Positions 9,374-32,911 of a DNA stretch of 40,807 nucleotides are shown one piece after another (the stretch's first letter is position 1; every line of letters begins with the position of its first letter). Both the position numbers and the translations under genes were made by a program. Under the pieces are notes generated by a model. It was given only the letters and a program-made list of their open reading frames with translations. It did no database searches and was not told the origin of the DNA. The DNA is from an uncultured Clostridia bacterium (GTDB lineage: Bacteria > Bacillota > Clostridia > Oscillospirales > Feifaniaceae), in the NCBI GenBank assembly GCA_904420075.1, contig CAJFTX010000092.1, positions 1 through 40,807 on the forward strand, read 5' to 3'.

Positions 9374-9400
9374 GAGCCCCGTTCTGACGGGGCTCTTGCA
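9374..9400 (+). terminator. Probable terminator after hydA
   Basis: GAGCCCCG (9374-9381), 6-base loop, CGGGGCTC (9388-9395), an 8-bp GC-rich stem directly after the stop. The tract that follows is only TTGCAT, which is itself the -35 of the next promoter, so termination may be incomplete. Confidence 0.55.
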
Positions 9401-9424
9401 TCTCATTTGCAAAGTGAATATAAT
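9396..9424 (+). promoter_or_regulatory. Promoter of the B12 riboswitch and uptake operon
   Basis: TTGCAT (9396-9401), 17-base spacer, TATAAT (9419-9424). The transcript would start near 9431, a few bases before the aptamer P1 stem. Confidence 0.75.
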
Positions 9425-9437
9425 AAGGTTACGAAAT

Positions 9438-9570
9438 AGGACGTACCTTTTTGAGGAAGGCCGCGCAGGGAATGCGCGGCGGGGAAGAGTCCCTCCGGTG
9501 AGAGACCGGCACTGTACTCAGCAACCGTGAGCGCTTGCGGGCGCAAGTCGGGATACTCGGGGCGCGTCCT
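9438..9570 (+). promoter_or_regulatory. Cobalamin riboswitch aptamer
   Basis: The closing stem pairs AGGACG (9438-9443) with CGTCCT (9565-9570). The core has the conserved cobalamin pieces in order: GGTGAGAGACCGGCACTG (from about 9497), GCAACCGTGAGCG (from about 9521), and a B12 box AGTCGGGATACTCGG (from about 9545). These fit the RF00174 consensus elements (GGTG-AA-CC, GCCACTGTaA, AGYCAGGAgACC) as I know them. It is followed by a terminator hairpin and B12-transport-like genes, which supports the assignment. Confidence 0.9.
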
Positions 9571-9631
9571 TCTGCACAGCACCTCTGGGGGGTGGAGCTC
9601 TGCACACGGGAGGGCACAGGTGTGCCCATTT

Positions 9632-9661
9632 GCGGGGTCCATTCTTTGGGCCCCGCTTTTT
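9632..9661 (+). terminator. Riboswitch expression-platform terminator
   Basis: GCGGGGTCC (9632-9640), loop ATTCTTT, GGGCCCCGC (9648-9656), then a run of five T. A nine-pair stem with one G-U. It lies between the aptamer and the first gene, so cobalamin binding most likely favours this terminator and stops transcription. A smaller hairpin GGGCACA/TGTGCCC at 9612-9627 may belong to the alternative fold. Confidence 0.8.
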
Positions 9662-9691
9662 GCGTCCCCCGGAGCTTTTTAGGAGGACGGA

Positions 9692-11329
9692 ATGAATCGG
9701 AGAGGGAATGGAATGGTTGCGCTGCTGCTTGCGGCGGCGCTGTTTGGAGGAATCTGCTCCGCCGTGGCGCTCCCGGTGGAAGCGGCGGCGGGCTACTCCG
9801 CCGCTGCGGAGGCCGGACTCTCCGCGGCGATTGACGACACGGCGGCCTATCTTAGGGAGCAGGTGCCGCATCCGTCGGTTGGAGAAATTGGCGGGGAGTG
9901 GACGGTACTGGGGCTTGCGCGCAGTGGAAGAACACTGCCGGAGAGCTACTATCAGGAGTACTGTCGGGCGCTTGAAGAGCGCCTTTTGGAGACGGGCGGA
10001 GTGCTCGACGCACGGAAAAATACCACATATGCCAGAGCGGCGCTGACCCTTGCCGCGCTTGGAAGAGACCCGAGAAATTTTGCGGGATATGACCTGGTAG
10101 CGCCGCTGCTTGACGAAGAGAAGACCGCGATGCAGGGGATTAACGGCCCGATCTGGGCGCTTATCGCGCTTGACTGCGGCGGCGTTTCCCTGACGTCGGA
10201 GGAGGCGGCGGTGCGGGAGCGCTATGTCGCATGGGTTTTGGGGCGTCAGCTGCCGGACGGAGGCTTTTCACTCTCTGATCAGGCCGACCCGGATCTCACG
10301 GCGATGGCGCTTGTCGCGCTCTCGGGCAGCCGGGGAGATGCGGAGGTAGAATTGGCGATCGGCCGAGGGGTAGCGTGTCTTGCGTCGCTTCAGTGGGAGA
10401 GCGGCGGCTTTGCCAGCTGGGGGATGGAGAACGCGGAGAGTGTCTCGCAGGTGATAATAGCGCTCGGGACTCTCGGCATACCGCTTGACGACCCGCGCTT
10501 TGCAAAGGGGGAAGGACTGCTCGGGAACCTGCTTGGCTACTACCGCGAGGGAGCGGGGTTTGTCCATGTGGACGGCCTTGCGGGCGACGACCAGATGACG
10601 ACCGAGCAGGCGTTCTGCGCGCTGGTGGCTGCTGAGCGCCAGAGCCTCGGAAAATGTGCGCTCTACCGCATGGAGGACGCGCTCTTCGTCCCGGATGGGG
10701 GCGCGCCGGGAGAAGGACTGCCGGGGAAACACCCGGATGTGACCAGAAATCCTGTGAGAGAGCCGGGGAAAAGCTTTGCGGATATTGCGGACCATCCGGA
10801 CAGAGAGGCGATTGAGGCGCTCGCTGCACGCGGTGTGATCGGCGGCCGGAGCGAGAGCGAATTTGTCCCCGAAGGAAAGATGACCCGCGCGGAGTTCGCG
10901 ACGATCGTGGTGCGCGCGCTTGGCCTCTCACCGCGGACAAACGACCGCTTTGCCGACGTCACGCCGGAGAAGTGGTATGCGGCGTCTGTCGGCGCGGCAA
11001 ATGAGTACGGCATCGTCTATGGCGACAGCGAAACAACCTTCAACCCGGAGGGGACAATCACCCGGGAGGAGGCGGCTGTGATGGTGGCGCGGGCGGCGTC
11101 TCTCTGCGGAATGGACACCGGTAGAGAGGAGCAGGAAATTTTGGACGCGCTCGCGCAATTTGACGACTATAGGGCGGTGGCGGACTGGGCGCGGGAGGCG
11201 CTCGCATTCTGCTACAGCGGCGGGATTTTGGACGATTCGGCTCTTACCATCCGGCCGCGGGATGCGGTGCTGCGCTGCGAGATCGCTCAGATGCTCTACC
11301 GCATGCTGGCGCGGGCCAATCTGCTGTAA
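9692..11329 (+). CDS. Secreted alpha/alpha-barrel protein (prenyltransferase-like repeats) with three SLH domains; putative B12-capture protein
   Basis: 545 residues. An N-terminal signal peptide (basic start, hydrophobic VALLLAAALFGG, Ala-x-Ala region near residue 33) is followed to about residue 330 by repeats typical of alpha/alpha toroids. Examples are QLPDGGFSLS, WESGGFASWG and GAGFVHVDG, each with a following helix. Three S-layer-homology repeats close the protein (about 360-415, 420-480, 490-545; FADI.., RFADVTPEKWY, TRAEFA), which would hold it to the cell wall. The first ~300 residues resemble the helical-barrel half of intrinsic factor/transcobalamin. It sits directly under a cobalamin riboswitch and beside the DUF4430 gene. 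Corrinoid binding is inferred. ATG 9692 follows AGGAGG. Confidence 0.85.
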   Translation: MNRRGNGMVALLLAAALFGGICSAVALPVEAAAGYSAAAEAGLSAAIDDTAAYLREQVPHPSVGEIGGEWTVLGLARSGRTLPESYYQEYCRALEERLLETGGVLDARKNTTYARAALTLAALGRDPRNFAGYDLVAPLLDEEKTAMQGINGPIWALIALDCGGVSLTSEEAAVRERYVAWVLGRQLPDGGFSLSDQADPDLTAMALVALSGSRGDAEVELAIGRGVACLASLQWESGGFASWGMENAESVSQVIIALGTLGIPLDDPRFAKGEGLLGNLLGYYREGAGFVHVDGLAGDDQMTTEQAFCALVAAERQSLGKCALYRMEDALFVPDGGAPGEGLPGKHPDVTRNPVREPGKSFADIADHPDREAIEALAARGVIGGRSESEFVPEGKMTRAEFATIVVRALGLSPRTNDRFADVTPEKWYAASVGAANEYGIVYGDSETTFNPEGTITREEAAVMVARAASLCGMDTGREEQEILDALAQFDDYRAVADWAREALAFCYSGGILDDSALTIRPRDAVLRCEIAQMLYRMLARANLL

Positions 11330-11341
11330 GGGGGCGGTCGG

Positions 11342-12154
11342 ATGTTAAAAAAGCACCGGACAAAACTGATCGTGGCGGGGGTGATTTTGCTCCTGCTGGC
11401 GGGGACTTTTTTCCTTGCGGATGGGGGCTCCGGGATGGCGCCGTCCCCTCCGCAGGAGCCTCCGGCAGAGGCGGAGATCGGACAGCCGGAGGAGCCAGCA
11501 GAGCAGCCCCCCTCGCCGGAGGAACCCAATGCGGAACAGCCCGATGCGGAATCTTTGGAGGAACCGGTAAGAAAGCCAGAGGAGCCGGAAAATACCGAGT
11601 CGGAGCCCCTCTTGGAGCAGCCGAAAAATCCGACGGAACAGCCGGAGCCGGAGGAGCCCGCAGAGCAGCTTCCTTCACCGGAGGCGCCTGTGGAGCCCGA
11701 GACCCCGCCCACTCCGGAGCCGGCTCCAGACCCAGAGACCTTCACCGTGACCCTCTCGGTGCGGTGCGACACCATCCTACAAAACAGGGACAAGCTGAAG
11801 CCGGAGAAGCTCGCCCTGCTGCCGGAGGATGGGGTGCTCTTTGCGTCAAGAGAGGTAGTCGCAAACCGCGGGGAGTCGGTATTTCATCTGCTCCAGCGGG
11901 AGATGAAGCGGGCGAAAATTCATCTGGAATTTGAGAATACGCCGCTCTACCAGTCGGCCTATATTGAGGGGATTGGCAACCTCTATGAGTATGACTGCGG
12001 TGAGCAGTCCGGCTGGATGTACCGGGTCAACGGGGTATTTCCGGGCTACGGCTGTTCAAAGTATCAGCTGAAGGCGGGCGACGTGGTCGAGTGGGTTTAC
12101 ACCTGCGACCTCGGACGGGACGTCGGCGGCTCCTGGGCCGCGGGGGGCAACTGA
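11342..12154 (+). CDS. Membrane-anchored DUF4430 (transcobalamin C-terminal-like) protein
   Basis: 270 residues. A short basic N-terminus and one hydrophobic helix (about residues 9-25) anchor or export it. Residues ~33-133 are an almost pure Pro/Glu/Ala linker that should be extended and could span the wall. The C-terminal ~135 residues are a DUF4430 domain with the signature GWMYRVNGVFPGYG, then YQLKAGDVVEWVYTC. DUF4430 corresponds to the beta-domain of transcobalamin/intrinsic factor, which closes over cobalamin. The preceding gene supplies a barrel-type partner, so the two look like a split version of that vitamin carrier. Starts 12 bases after the previous stop with GGGGGCGG upstream; co-transcribed with the ECF genes. 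Confidence 0.85.
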   Translation: MLKKHRTKLIVAGVILLLLAGTFFLADGGSGMAPSPPQEPPAEAEIGQPEEPAEQPPSPEEPNAEQPDAESLEEPVRKPEEPENTESEPLLEQPKNPTEQPEPEEPAEQLPSPEAPVEPETPPTPEPAPDPETFTVTLSVRCDTILQNRDKLKPEKLALLPEDGVLFASREVVANRGESVFHLLQREMKRAKIHLEFENTPLYQSAYIEGIGNLYEYDCGEQSGWMYRVNGVFPGYGCSKYQLKAGDVVEWVYTCDLGRDVGGSWAAGGN

Positions 12155-13041
12155 TGGGAGGCGCATTCGGCCGGTGCCACCCCGCTGTCAATTTTCTCTA
12201 TTTCGGGGCGGTGCTCGCGTTTGGGATGTGGTTTCTGCACCCGGTGTGCCTTTTGATCTCGTGTGGGACGGCGCTCTGCTGGTCGATTCTGCTCAAGGGA
12301 CGGCGGGCGGTGCGGTTCGCGCTCTGCGGCATGCTGCCGCTGATGGGGGTGACCGCGGTGCTCTCCCCGCTCTTCAGCCATGAGGGGGCGACCATCCTCT
12401 GGTATTTCCCGGACGGGAATCCGCTGACGCTCGAGTCGATCGCCTACGGATGTGCGGCGGCGGCGATGCTCGCGGGGATAATTCTGTGGTTCTCCTGCTA
12501 CAATGAGGTGATGACCTCGGACAAGTTTCTCTATCTGTTTGGCCGGGTGATTCCGGCGCTGTCGCTTATCTTTTCGATGGCGCTCCGATTTGTCCCGCGG
12601 TTTCAGGCTCAGTTCCGGGTGGTGCAAAATGGCCAAAAGTGTCTCGGAAAATTGGAGGGGGAGGGGAGCTTCTCCCGCATCCGGGGGGCGGTTCGGGTGC
12701 TCTCGATTATGGTCACCTGGGCGCTTGAAAATGCGATCGACACGGCGGACAGTATGAAGAGCAGGGGATACGGGCTGCCGGGACGTACGGCCTTTTCGCG
12801 CTACCGTTTTGGAAGCCGGGACACGCTGACACTCGGCGCGCTCGGGGCGGAGATTCTGTTTCTGCTCGCGGCGGCGCTGCGCGGGGCGTTTGATTTTACC
12901 TATTTTCCGGTCATATCCGCAGGCGGGAGCGGGAAACTGACCTGCGCTGCGCTTTTGGTCTATTTTCTGCTCTGCGCGACGCCGCTGATTCTGGAGGGGA
13001 GGGAGGCGCAACTTTGGAACTCTATCGAATGGAAAAGCTGA
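12154..13041 (+). CDS. ecfT: ECF transporter transmembrane component EcfT
   Basis: 295-residue membrane protein with about five to six hydrophobic helices. It has the cytosolic coupling helices of EcfT; a SMKSRGYGLPGR segment (about residues 204-215) is the Ala-Arg-Gly-type motif that grips the ATPases. EcfT links the substrate-binding S component to the two ATPases. The ATG shares its A with the previous stop (TGATG), indicating coupled translation; a reading from 12091 would overlap DUF4430 and lacks a ribosome site. Its end overlaps the next gene by 28 bases. Dedicated to B12 here, judging from the riboswitch and the fused S component. Confidence 0.9.
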   Translation: MGGAFGRCHPAVNFLYFGAVLAFGMWFLHPVCLLISCGTALCWSILLKGRRAVRFALCGMLPLMGVTAVLSPLFSHEGATILWYFPDGNPLTLESIAYGCAAAAMLAGIILWFSCYNEVMTSDKFLYLFGRVIPALSLIFSMALRFVPRFQAQFRVVQNGQKCLGKLEGEGSFSRIRGAVRVLSIMVTWALENAIDTADSMKSRGYGLPGRTAFSRYRFGSRDTLTLGALGAEILFLLAAALRGAFDFTYFPVISAGGSGKLTCAALLVYFLLCATPLILEGREAQLWNSIEWKS

Positions 13042-15608
13042 GCTTTGCCTATCCGGAGGGGAAGCGCCCGACGCTTGATCGGATCGATCTTGTGATCCGG
13101 GAGGGGGAATTTCTCACTCTGTGCGGCCGCTCGGGCTGCGGCAAAACGACGCTGCTGCGCCAGCTGAAACCCGCCCTTGCGCCCCACGGCGAGCGGACGG
13201 GCGCCATCTATTTTGCAGGGGAGCGGCTCGATTTACTGCCGGAGCAGCGGCAGGCGTCCGAGATCGGCTTTGTGCTGCAATCGCCGGAAAACCAGATTGT
13301 GACCGACAAGGTGTGGCATGAGCTCGCCTTTGGACTCGAGAGCTTGGGGCTGCCGAATGATACCATTCGGCGGCGGGTTGCAGAAATGGCGAGTTTTTTT
13401 GGAATTTCCGACTGGTTCGACCGCAGAACCTGCGAGCTCTCGGGCGGACAGAAGCAGCTGTTGAGTCTCGCCTCAGTGATGGTGATGCAGCCCCGGATAC
13501 TCATTCTCGACGAGCCGACAAGCCAGCTCGACCCGATTGCGGCCTCCGACTTTCTGGAGACGGTGGCGCGGCTCAACCGGGAACTCGGAACCACCGTGGT
13601 GCTCACCGAGCACCGGCTGGAGGAGGCGCTGCCGCTCTCCGACCGGGTGGCGCTGCTTGACGAGGGCCGGCTCCTGACGGTGGGTTCGCCCGCTGAGGTG
13701 GGAGGCTATGTGAGCGAGCGAAGGCATCCGATGTTCCGCGCGATGCCGGCGCCGGTGCGGGTGTTTGCGGGCCTACGGGGGGAGGGACGCTGCCCGGTCA
13801 CCGTGCGGGAAGGGCGCGACTTTTTGAGCCGATATGCACAGGGGAGGCCCCCTCTGGCGCTTCCTCCTGAACGGCGGAGAGCGGAGACGCCGTCTGCGGT
13901 GGAGCTTACAGAGCTCTTCTTCCGTTATGAAAGGGAGCTGCCCGATGTGATCAAAGGACTGTCGCTCACCGTGCGGGAGGGAGAGCTCTTCGCGCTGGTC
14001 GGCGGAAACGGGACAGGAAAGAGCACCCTCCTCTCCCTGATTGCGGGACTTGGCCGCCCCCAGAGGGGAGCGGTCACCCTCTTCGGCGGGACACGGGCGA
14101 AAGTAGGCTATCTCCCGCAGGACCCGCGGGCGCTCTTTGTGAAAAAGACGGTAGAACTCGATCTTCTTGAGATGACCGGGAGCAGGAAAGAGTTGGAGCG
14201 GGTCGCGGAGCTCTGCGAGATCTCGCACCTGCTGCGGCTACATCCCTACGATCTCTCCGGCGGGGAACAGCAGCGGGCGGCGCTCGCGAAGGTGCTGCTC
14301 ACCCGTCCCAGACTGCTCCTGCTTGACGAACCGACCAAGGGGATGGATGCGGACTTCAAAGAGCGGCTTGCGGCCCTGTTGCGCAAGCTCCGGGAGGGCG
14401 GAACGACGATCCTGCTGGTGAGTCACGATGTGGAGTTCTGTGCGGAGGTGGCGGACCGGTGCGCGCTGCTCTTTGACGGGGCGGTTGCGGCCTGCGGCAC
14501 GCCGCGCAGTTTTTTCGCGGGGAACAATTTTTATACCACGGCGGCAAACCGGATGGCAAGGGAGTTATTGCCGGAGGCAGTGACCGTTCCGGAACTGATC
14601 TTGGCATTTGGCGGGAAGGAGCAGATCTGTTCCGCGCCGGAGCGGACCCCTCTGCCGGCTGCGGAGCAGGTGCAAGTCTCCCGTGTGCGCAGGTCCGCGG
14701 CGTGGATGCTGCTCGCGGCGGCGGTTTTACTCGCGCTGTGCCTGATGGGAGGAGGAGAGCGGCTGTTCGGCGGAGACCTCTTAAGCGGCGCGCTTCCGCT
14801 TTCTGGAAAGCTGCTCTATCTCGGCGCAGCTGTGTTGCTCTGTGCGGCCGTGGTCTGCGCGCTTTTTCTGCTGCGCGGGCCGCGGCGGGAGGAGCGGCAG
14901 ATGCGGCGGGAGCGACTGTCGAAGCGGACGGTAGCGGCCTCGGCCTTCTGCCTGCTGCTGGTGCCGTTCACCATCTATATTGGAATCCATTTTTTGGGAG
15001 ATCGAAAATACTACTTTATCTCTCTGCTGGTACTTCTTGAGACAATGGCCCCCTTCGCGCTCTGTTTTGAAGGACGGCGGCCAAAACCGCGGGAGCTGCT
15101 GGTGATCGCCGTACTCTGTGCGGTCGCGGTGGCGGGGCGGACGGCGTTTTTCTGGCTGCCGCAATTCAAGCCGGTGGCGGCTGTGGTGATCGTTGCAGGG
15201 ATGGCGTTCGGCGGAGAGGCGGGCTTCCTGGTGGGGGCGATGAGCGCCTTTGTATCAAACTTCTTCTTCGGACAGGGACCGTGGACGCCGTGGCAGATGT
15301 TCGCCTTTGGACTGATCGGTTTTTTGGCGGGAGTTCTCGCACGGCGGGGGCTGCTCCCGCGCCGGAGATGGCCGCTTGCGGTATTTGGTTTCTTGAGCAC
15401 AGTGGTGATCTACGGAGGGATATTAAATCCCGCGTCGGTACTCATTTTTCAGGGAAGTCCCACGCCGGAGATGATGGCTGCGTCCTATCTCACAGGTCTG
15501 CCGTTTGACCTGGTGCACGGTACGGCGACCTTTTTCTTCCTGATGGTGGGAGGACAGGCTCTTTTGGAGAAGCTGGACCGGGTTAAAATAAAGTACGGAC
15601 TCATCTGA
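13014..15608 (+). CDS. Fused ECF ATPase-ATPase-S component (EcfA-EcfA'-EcfS), cobalamin-type
   Basis: 864 residues. First ATPase: Walker A GRSGCGKTT (residues 38-46), Q-loop LQSPENQ, signature LSGGQKQ (about 142), Walker B ILILDEP (about 163). Second ATPase: Walker A GGNGTGKST (about 331), YLPQDP, LSGGEQQR (about 414), LLLLDEPTKGMD. From about residue 560 the chain is membranous: two linker helices, then a six-helix S component with FFFGQGPWTPWQMFAFGLIGF, a motif I associate with CbrT-type cobalamin S components. Translation probably starts at TTG 13014 after GGAGGGGAGGGAGG; ATG 13029 is the alternative. All energising ATPase and specificity functions are thus on one polypeptide. Last gene of the operon, followed by a strong terminator. 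Confidence 0.88.
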   Translation: MELYRMEKLSFAYPEGKRPTLDRIDLVIREGEFLTLCGRSGCGKTTLLRQLKPALAPHGERTGAIYFAGERLDLLPEQRQASEIGFVLQSPENQIVTDKVWHELAFGLESLGLPNDTIRRRVAEMASFFGISDWFDRRTCELSGGQKQLLSLASVMVMQPRILILDEPTSQLDPIAASDFLETVARLNRELGTTVVLTEHRLEEALPLSDRVALLDEGRLLTVGSPAEVGGYVSERRHPMFRAMPAPVRVFAGLRGEGRCPVTVREGRDFLSRYAQGRPPLALPPERRRAETPSAVELTELFFRYERELPDVIKGLSLTVREGELFALVGGNGTGKSTLLSLIAGLGRPQRGAVTLFGGTRAKVGYLPQDPRALFVKKTVELDLLEMTGSRKELERVAELCEISHLLRLHPYDLSGGEQQRAALAKVLLTRPRLLLLDEPTKGMDADFKERLAALLRKLREGGTTILLVSHDVEFCAEVADRCALLFDGAVAACGTPRSFFAGNNFYTTAANRMARELLPEAVTVPELILAFGGKEQICSAPERTPLPAAEQVQVSRVRRSAAWMLLAAAVLLALCLMGGGERLFGGDLLSGALPLSGKLLYLGAAVLLCAAVVCALFLLRGPRREERQMRRERLSKRTVAASAFCLLLVPFTIYIGIHFLGDRKYYFISLLVLLETMAPFALCFEGRRPKPRELLVIAVLCAVAVAGRTAFFWLPQFKPVAAVVIVAGMAFGGEAGFLVGAMSAFVSNFFFGQGPWTPWQMFAFGLIGFLAGVLARRGLLPRRRWPLAVFGFLSTVVIYGGILNPASVLIFQGSPTPEMMAASYLTGLPFDLVHGTATFFFLMVGGQALLEKLDRVKIKYGLI

Positions 15609-30984: not shown

Positions 30985-31746
30985 GTGGAGATCAGAGAGC
31001 TGCTACAGGCATATAAGAAGGGCCTCCTCTCGGAGGAAGAGGCCGCCCGTGCCCTCACATACAGCGACTTGGGGTTTGCAAAGGTGGACCGACAGCGGAG
31101 TCTGCGCTGCGGTCTGCCGGAGGTGATCTACTGCGAGGGAAAGACGGACGAGCAGATTCTGCGCATCTTTGAGGATCTCCGGGCGGGCAGCTGTAAGACG
31201 GCGCTCGGCACCCGGCTCGCGCCGGAGCGGGCGCGATGGCTCGAGGGGCGGCTGTCCGGCCTGCACTATTTTGAGAAGGCCCGTATCGCATTGCTCGGCG
31301 AGCCGATGGAGGAGGTGCCGGAGCGGTATGTTGTCGTTGCGACTGGCGGCACTTCGGACATCCCGGTGGCGGAGGAGGCGGCAGTGACAGCCGCGGCCTT
31401 TGGCGCGCGGGTGGAGCGGTGCTACGATGTGGGCGTCGCGGGGCTGCACCGGCTGCTCTCCAAGGCGGAGCTGATCGCGGGGGCGTCCGCGGTGGTCGCC
31501 GTCGCGGGAATGGAAGGGGCGCTCGCCTCTGTCGTGGCGGGGCTCGCGCCCTGTCCGGTGCTTGCGGTGCCCACAAGCGTGGGCTATGGCGCGAGTTTCG
31601 GCGGCCTCTCGGCGCTGCTTACGATGCTCAACAGCTGCGCCTCCGGCGTCTCGGTCGTCAACATTGATAATGGATTCGGAGCGGGCTATCAGGCGGCTCT
31701 GATCAACCGTATAGGGGTGAAAAACAGTGAAGACACTCTATATTGA
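30985..31746 (+). CDS. larB: LarB, nicotinic acid adenine dinucleotide carboxylase/hydrolase
   Basis: 253 residues from GTG 30985, which follows TAGGAG. The N-terminal part (LQAYKKGLLSEEEA, DRQRSLRCGLPEVIYCEGKT) is the LarB-specific region. The C-terminal half is a PurE-like domain: VVVATGGTSDIPVAEEAA (about residues 112-129), RCYDVGVAGLHRLL, VAVAGMEGALASVVAGL, PVLAVPTSVGYGASFGG. LarB carboxylates the pyridinium ring of NaAD and releases AMP, the first step to the NPN cofactor. Its end overlaps larC by 20 bases, so larC is translated in close coupling. Confidence 0.95.
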   Translation: MEIRELLQAYKKGLLSEEEAARALTYSDLGFAKVDRQRSLRCGLPEVIYCEGKTDEQILRIFEDLRAGSCKTALGTRLAPERARWLEGRLSGLHYFEKARIALLGEPMEEVPERYVVVATGGTSDIPVAEEAAVTAAAFGARVERCYDVGVAGLHRLLSKAELIAGASAVVAVAGMEGALASVVAGLAPCPVLAVPTSVGYGASFGGLSALLTMLNSCASGVSVVNIDNGFGAGYQAALINRIGVKNSEDTLY

Positions 31747-32911
31747 GATGAACAGCGGCGTTGCGGGCGATATGTTCGCAGGCGCGCTCTGCGATCTGAC
31801 CGGCGGCTATGAACTGCTGAGAGAGAAACTTGCGGGAGTGCTGCCGGGCGAGTTTGAGACCTCGCTGGAAACAGTAAAGCGCTGCGGTATCGCGGCGAAA
31901 AAATTTCGGGTGACTCTGCAGGAGCACCGTCATCACGGACAGCATCATCACGGCGAAGCACATCACCACCACCGGCATCTCTCGGATATCCGTGAGATTC
32001 TTGCGGAGAGTGCGCTCTCCGAGAAGGAGAAGGCGCTTGCGCTGCGCATCTTTGAGCGGGTGGCGCGGGCGGAGGCCAAAGCGCACGGCTGCGGAATGGA
32101 TGAGGTGCATTTCCACGAGGTCGGAGCAGTCGACTCGATTGTAGATATCGTCTCGGCTGCGGTACTTGTGACGCTGCTCGCGCCCGACCGGGTGATTGCA
32201 AGTCCGTTCTGTGAGGGACAGGGCTTTGTCCACTGCGCGCACGGCGAGATGCCGCTGCCCGCGCCTGCGACGGCGAATATTCTTGCGGAGGTGGGCGCGC
32301 CGCTTGTACGGACGGAACTCCCTTTTGAACTCACCACCCCGACGGGCGCCGCTATCGTAGCGGAACTCGCGACGGGATACGGCGCGCCGCCGATGCGGAT
32401 CAAGAAGATTGGACTCGGCGCCGGGGACCGGGAGCTCGAGCGGCCGAATCTCGTGCGGCTTTTCCTCTGCGAGGGGGAGGAGAGCGAGGTTCTGGAGCTC
32501 AGCTGCAATCTCGACGACTGCACCGGAGAACGACTTGCTTACACGCAGGAGCGACTACTAGGCGCGGGGGCGCTCGACTGCTTTTTCACTCCGGTCATGA
32601 TGAAAAAGTCGCGCCCGGCCTATGAGCTCACTCTGCTCTGCACGCCGGAGAAAAGAGAGGGGCTCATCGAGATTCTCTTTTCGGAGACGACGACGATCGG
32701 CGTGAGGGAGCACACGGTGACCCGCTGCACGATGGAGCGGGAGCGGGTGCTGGTACGGACTGCATTTGGCCCGCTCGAGGGCAAGCGCTGCACCTATCGC
32801 GGAATCGAGAAGCTCTACCCCGAGTATGAGAGCGCAGCGGAAGCGGCGAGAGAGCGCGGCGTACCCCTCGCCACAGTGTATGAGGCGTTTTTGAAAGGGG
32901 AGATGGAATGA
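31727..32911 (+). CDS. larC: LarC, nickel insertion protein for the NPN cofactor (unsplit)
   Basis: 394 residues. GTG 31727 follows AGGGGTG inside the larB end. N-terminus MKTLYIEMNSGVAGDMFAGALCDL is the LarC/DUF111 start. Residues 67-84 form a His-rich loop with 11 histidines in 18 positions, a plausible nickel reservoir. The rest covers HFHEVGAVDSIVDI (about 125-138), ELTTPTGAAI, and the C-terminal LarC2 part (SCNLDDCTGERLAY, KKSRPAYEL, TTIGVREH). LarC inserts Ni using CTP. In Lactiplantibacillus the protein arises from larC1/larC2 by frameshifting; here it is one continuous frame. The end overlaps the next gene by 4 bases. Confidence 0.95.
   Translation: MKTLYIEMNSGVAGDMFAGALCDLTGGYELLREKLAGVLPGEFETSLETVKRCGIAAKKFRVTLQEHRHHGQHHHGEAHHHHRHLSDIREILAESALSEKEKALALRIFERVARAEAKAHGCGMDEVHFHEVGAVDSIVDIVSAAVLVTLLAPDRVIASPFCEGQGFVHCAHGEMPLPAPATANILAEVGAPLVRTELPFELTTPTGAAIVAELATGYGAPPMRIKKIGLGAGDRELERPNLVRLFLCEGEESEVLELSCNLDDCTGERLAYTQERLLGAGALDCFFTPVMMKKSRPAYELTLLCTPEKREGLIEILFSETTTIGVREHTVTRCTMERERVLVRTAFGPLEGKRCTYRGIEKLYPEYESAAEAARERGVPLATVYEAFLKGEME

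Follow-up and report, generated by a model that had tools for sequence, protein, structure and literature searches.

The DNA analysed here (the window) is a 40,807-nucleotide stretch of contig CAJFTX010000092.1 from an uncultured Clostridia bacterium of the family Feifaniaceae, whose genome assembly (GCA_904420075.1) comprises 1.9 Mb and is 93.5% complete. On the plus strand of the window, at positions 9692–15608, four tightly packed genes form an operon for a barrel protein with SLH repeats, a DUF4430 protein, the EcfT component of an energy-coupling factor (ECF) transporter, and an EcfA-EcfA'-S fusion. The proposal that they specify a split transcobalamin-like corrinoid capture system is well supported by homology and genomic context. 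All protein features listed in a previous sequence-only reading of this DNA, i.e., the secreted barrel with SLH repeats, the anchored DUF4430 domain on a Pro/Glu linker, EcfT, and the A-A'-S chain, were found in place. The locus is organized as follows:

9438–9580 (core 9493–9557), plus strand: probable divergent short-form cobalamin riboswitch aptamer; sub-threshold RF01482 and RF00174 matches, ranked first (weakly) among window sites by model R2
9632–9656, plus strand: intrinsic-terminator-like hairpin with T run, 10 pairs (8 G-C), just before the first gene
9692–11329, plus strand: gene of the barrel protein (putative alpha half), 545 aa; recognized by the family model, barrel at about 9815–10687
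10775–11311, plus strand: SLH repeats of the barrel protein (putative wall anchor), Pfam SLH 90.3 bits
11342–12154, plus strand: gene of the DUF4430 protein (putative beta half), 270 aa; PF14478, linker at about 11432–11737, DUF4430 at about 11741–12121
12154–13041, plus strand: EcfT transmembrane component; recognized by CbiQ (24.4 bits) and identity to relatives
13014–15608, plus strand: EcfA-EcfA'-S fusion, 864 aa; A 13029–13700, A' 13905–14513, S 14907–15605
9374–9395, called on the minus strand (the hairpin is symmetric): terminator-like site after the upstream hydrogenase gene

The product of the first gene starts with a signal peptide, followed by a barrel at residues 42–332, recognized at 395 bits by a family hidden Markov model built in this analysis, and by an SLH region at residues 362–540 (Pfam SLH 90 bits, two repeats passing). 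Pfam alone assigned to the barrel a weak Prenyltrans toroid, under the cut-off (18.6 bits). The signal peptide and SLH repeats, together with a candidate wall pyruvyl-transferase in the genome (PF04230, 115.8 bits), are the features of an SLH-anchored surface protein; because PF04230 is a broad family, this candidate is simply consistent with such anchoring. The product of the second gene has an N-terminal membrane anchor with no lipobox cysteine, a linker of 102 residues, 59 of which are proline or glutamate, and a DUF4430 domain (PF14478, 61.9–65 bits).

The two remaining genes encode the transporter. The CbiQ score of EcfT falls just short of the cut-off of 25, and the protein is 34–54% identical to 24 further EcfT proteins of this operon type. 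The fusion chain carries two ABC ATPase domains (ABC_tran) and the S domain, the single significant PDB match of which was 6FNP (E 1.9e-7), which we take to be the CbrT entry, the S-component of a vitamin B12 ECF transporter. Judged by sequence comparison, the S domain is homologous to CbrT, and EcfT and two ATPases, as in a CbrT-type ECF transporter, are also encoded in the operon. The CbrT transporter of Lactobacillus delbrueckii imports cobalamin and cobinamide (PMC5997447). The ATPase pair and the S domain share one chain of ~850–930 aa in the window and in many relatives (e.g., L055, L058, and L138); in others, S is a separate gene. The genome also encodes two proteins with B12-binding domains, and CobS was not detectable in this 93.5% complete assembly.

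Related loci were surveyed in two ways; as the loci are related to one another, the counts do not represent independent events. In one survey, EcfT was the sole criterion for choosing loci. It had at least 572 relatives, spanning Clostridia and Paenibacillus and including the cultured Flavonifractor plautii, Sporobacter termitidis, and Lutispora thermophila; 80 loci were kept, 56 of them with at least 4 kb upstream. Both the barrel and DUF4430 were present upstream of EcfT in 46 of these 56 loci, neither was present in 10, and one alone was never found. The two resided on separate chains in 45 loci, the barrel chain bore SLH repeats in 38, and a one-chain barrel–DUF4430 protein was additionally present in 22. 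A cobalamin riboswitch was located upstream in 40/56 loci (matches up to E 0.02 counted), with 56 of the 57 matches on the operon strand; the exception precedes a divergent barrel–DUF4430–SLH gene. The co-occurrence of barrel, DUF4430, and cobalamin riboswitch, which the sequence-only reading had proposed as a check, was thus observed, and homologous pairs were mostly under cobalamin riboswitches and not under unrelated regulation. In six of the pair-less loci (L084, L103, L119, L145, L159, and L161), EcfT was still immediately preceded by the riboswitch, a link between the ECF module itself and B12.

The other, independent survey started from DUF4430, detected in 172 of the 391 genomes drawn from the class; 36 loci around well-scoring DUF4430 genes were fetched, blind to riboswitches. 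A barrel was present in about 30 of them, and EcfT of this operon type in 31. Rfam matched 23 riboswitches in the fetched loci, 22 as Cobalamin and one as ZTP; one of the 22, at L065, was located downstream of its operon.

In the window the barrel and the DUF4430 domain are encoded by separate genes (9692–11329 and 11342–12154), and other proteins of this group have them on one polypeptide. One such protein, of 463 aa and membrane-anchored (L120:17273–18664), joins a split-type barrel and DUF4430 via a ~25-residue linker; it shares 39% identity with the barrel of the window and 48% with the DUF4430 domain encoded there. Its barrel is nearer to split-type barrels (mostly 40–51%) than to those of giant proteins (31–36%). 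The L120 fusion was modelled confidently, with a predicted local distance difference test score (pLDDT) of 93.1 and a predicted template modelling score (pTM) of 0.88. All of the 15 best PDB matches of the model were animal carriers (transcobalamin, intrinsic factor, and haptocorrin), with alignments covering both domains and E values from 2e-10 to 6e-9; the next after these was the isolated human transcobalamin beta domain. The model gives the L120 fusion the fold of the animal carriers, an alpha/alpha barrel with a DUF4430-type beta domain. The kinship of barrel and DUF4430 to B12 carriers is visible, in the models, by fold only; when the barrel and the DUF4430 domain were compared with the PDB by single sequence and by profile, no B12 carrier was retrieved. 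The idea that the window proteins are two halves of a transcobalamin-type binder, put forward from the sequence, is strengthened by this natural fusion and its first-ranking matches to the animal carriers; each element of that reading accessible to computation gave a favourable outcome. At rank 18 for the L120 model, PDB entry 3U7Z, Ruminococcus gnavus RUMGNA_00854, described as a 'putative metal binding protein', matched the DUF4430 part; by this structural likeness it may be a corrinoid-binding beta domain.

The other one-chain case lies in the same genome as the window. The 2188-aa protein encoded on the minus strand at L005:4971–11537 (G000:C20) combines GLUG repeats, two DUF4430 domains, a barrel, and SLH repeats, and from its domain composition we regard it as a complete one-chain counterpart of the window pair, with a cobalamin riboswitch of its own. 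In seven loci (L104, L113, L130, L131, L140, L143, and L157), giant proteins are ordered barrel–DUF4430–SLH–barrel, with the last barrel right before the membrane DUF4430 gene; by domain order, one and the same protein there comprises the wall-bound one-chain binder and the barrel half of the split pair. The genome also encodes, at L006:7443–8369 (G000:C8), an anchored 145-aa DUF4430 protein beside a 161-aa CbrT-like S protein. These two have no barrel or ECF module of their own, their neighbours are corrinoid-protein and methyltransferase genes, and they possibly represent a second, minimal corrinoid uptake unit.

The regulatory region of the window operon gave a less clear picture. In the Rfam scan of the window no family reached its gathering score. 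At 9493–9552, RF01482 (AdoCbl) scored 21.9 bits against a threshold of 50, the top AdoCbl match in the 1.9-Mb genome, and RF00174 (Cobalamin) scored 15.5 bits for the window site against a threshold of 31.5, second in the genome after C20:20666–20881. The latter site is located ~130 bases upstream of the 2188-aa barrel–DUF4430–SLH gene; a model derived from relatives alone scored it at 54.2 bits (E 4e-12). Since the two best RF00174 sites of the genome each precede one of its two barrel–DUF4430 loci, chance is hard to invoke. Alignment with 15 short-form riboswitches of relatives revealed, upstream of the operon, the conserved core (GGTG..A..CC, AC.GTGA, AAGTC.G) with its elements correctly ordered. 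The short-form covariance model R2, derived from relatives, ranked the window site first in the window, weakly (7.7 bits, E 0.87); over the whole genome it listed the C20 site only, and the class-I covariance model R1 did not detect the window site. The RNA fold of the 5' region was little more stable than shuffles (z −1.28). The cobalamin riboswitch placed before the operon by the sequence-only reading is therefore kept as a probable, not certain, divergent short-form riboswitch: the best AdoCbl match of the genome and the ordered core motifs speak for it, and recognition at Rfam thresholds was not attained. The hairpin at 9632–9656 is likely its expression platform.

Altogether, we favour, with a probability of about 0.68, a corrinoid capture and import operon with a binder of the transcobalamin/intrinsic factor type split over two anchored chains. 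Import would be performed by the ECF transporter (EcfT, A, A', and the CbrT-like S domain), with the barrel acting as the alpha half and DUF4430 as the beta half of one binder. The beta half would be tethered to the membrane by its long flexible linker and the barrel half kept in the wall by SLH repeats; corrinoid would bind one half and then be capped by the other. The closed complex would stay near the membrane and then open to release its corrinoid to the S component; the cobalamin riboswitch probably turns the operon off when corrinoid is plentiful. The separate one-chain barrel–DUF4430–SLH protein probably captures corrinoid farther out and hands it on towards the cell, the likely path leading from the wall-bound one-chain binder through the split pair to the S component. 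Because the one-chain protein occurs at another locus of this genome and often in the operons of relatives, the split pair probably makes up a single step of a relay. We infer corrinoid binding, capping across chains, hand-off, relay, and activity of the window riboswitch from these comparisons. Separately produced alpha and beta domains of human transcobalamin come together only in the presence of added cobalamin, the beta half alone binds cobalamin, and the halves of intrinsic factor are reported to behave likewise (PMC5599065); this assembly makes a two-chain binder physically reasonable. The broader idea of a widespread Gram-positive relay, from a one-chain wall binder through a two-chain binder closing only on its cargo to a CbrT-type importer, with ancestry shared with animal intrinsic factor and transcobalamin, is held tentatively, at somewhat under even odds.

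Several observations weigh against the split binder. The riboswitch site of the window is below every threshold, and DUF4430 loci L048, L049, L068, and L080 had no barrel nearby. The L120 model superimposed loosely on full-length transcobalamin and intrinsic factor (TM 0.45–0.60, root-mean-square deviation ~8 Å), which indicates a shared architecture with domain packing that is not demonstrably alike. The toroid fold matches of the window barrel model (pLDDT 94.1) included transcobalamin, and in the fold search terpene cyclases matched this lone barrel slightly better; hence, the barrel alone is not diagnostic and the barrel–DUF4430 pair is. Clustering of conserved barrel residues at the rim was marginal (p 0.03, with helix C-termini almost equally conserved) and was not used as support.

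The best surviving alternative, which we consider unlikely but worth keeping in mind, is a corrinoid uptake operon with no joint binder, in which the membrane DUF4430 protein alone would serve S and the barrel would work with the giant one-chain proteins or bind something else. The cobalamin binding by the lone human beta domain (PMC5599065), the loci with DUF4430 and no nearby barrel, and the L006 pair of DUF4430 and S beside corrinoid methyltransferase genes all fit it, and anchoring in the wall versus the membrane may hold the two chains apart. What argues for the split binder instead is the strict pairing of barrel and DUF4430 ahead of EcfT, the natural fusion of exactly these two subtypes in L120, and the ~100-residue linker, able to bridge a distance. 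It is very improbable that the ECF transporter serves a different substrate, be it cobalt, riboflavin, or something else, and that the surface proteins are unrelated to it: the T component bears the Pfam name 'cobalt transport' (CbiQ) and the S domain scores with generic and riboflavin S families, which point that way, but CbrT is the one significant PDB match of this domain, most relatives have cobalamin riboswitches ahead of the operon, some even without the surface genes, and the extracellular parts resemble B12 carriers. Least probable of all, a surface enzyme (terpene-cyclase-like or another toroid) with incidental operon neighbours was rejected: the lone barrel retrieves squalene-hopene and drimenyl cyclases in profile and fold searches, but the stretch that forms the catalytic DxDD in cyclases (DVDDT in squalene-hopene cyclase) is DPD-L/I-T here, the protein is secreted and wall-anchored, its association with DUF4430, the CbrT-like ECF transporter, and cobalamin riboswitches is constant, and the barrel is fused to DUF4430 in other proteins.

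Away from the operon, at 31727–32911, the window encodes a nickel insertion protein (PF01969, LarC family, 440 bits), which suggests a nickel-cofactor pathway nearby.

Corrinoid capture outside the Gram-positive membrane is poorly described, and Bacteroides surface lipoproteins are known to capture B12. The presence of the same gene set in hundreds of bacterial genomes, usually with a B12-sensing riboswitch, points to an undescribed form of surface B12 capture, a concrete and testable machine with the architecture of the human B12 carriers. It suggests that gut bacteria may catch B12 with the same protein fold as their host, and it indicates a bacterial group in which to seek relatives or ancestors of intrinsic factor and transcobalamin. 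Neither the system nor its combination of parts, their distribution over two anchored chains, and the connection with animal B12 carriers was found described in the open-access literature searched; most subscription papers and bioRxiv preprints are outside this coverage and an earlier description is possible. The parts are of known kinds, and the system is not categorically new because both the fold family and the transporter family are established.

The animal carriers transcobalamin, intrinsic factor, and haptocorrin share with the operon products the order of an alpha/alpha barrel and a DUF4430-type beta domain. They are single soluble chains with uptake receptors, whereas here two chains, anchored in the wall and the membrane, are encoded beside an ECF importer. 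The folds of the Bacteroides BtuG-type lipoproteins differ from those of the barrel and DUF4430 proteins. In the Bacteroides system (PMC6143338), as would be the case here, surface B12 capture is tied to an importer under riboswitch control; the Bacteroides system differs in its cell envelope, its outer-membrane uptake, and its use of surface lipoproteins. In Lacticaseibacillus, the gene of the DUF4430 protein LGG_02295 neighbours rtpR, which encodes ribonucleotide reductase, and the same paper carries the annotation 'additional lipoprotein component of putative cobalamin ECF transporter', which may or may not refer to LGG_02295; no barrel partner is described there and the role is an annotation (PMC9963975). 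ECF-CbrT of L. delbrueckii is alike in its homologous S domain, EcfT, A, and A' (PMC5997447), whereas the system described here has a dedicated module with S fused to A-A' and extracellular capture proteins encoded in the same operon.

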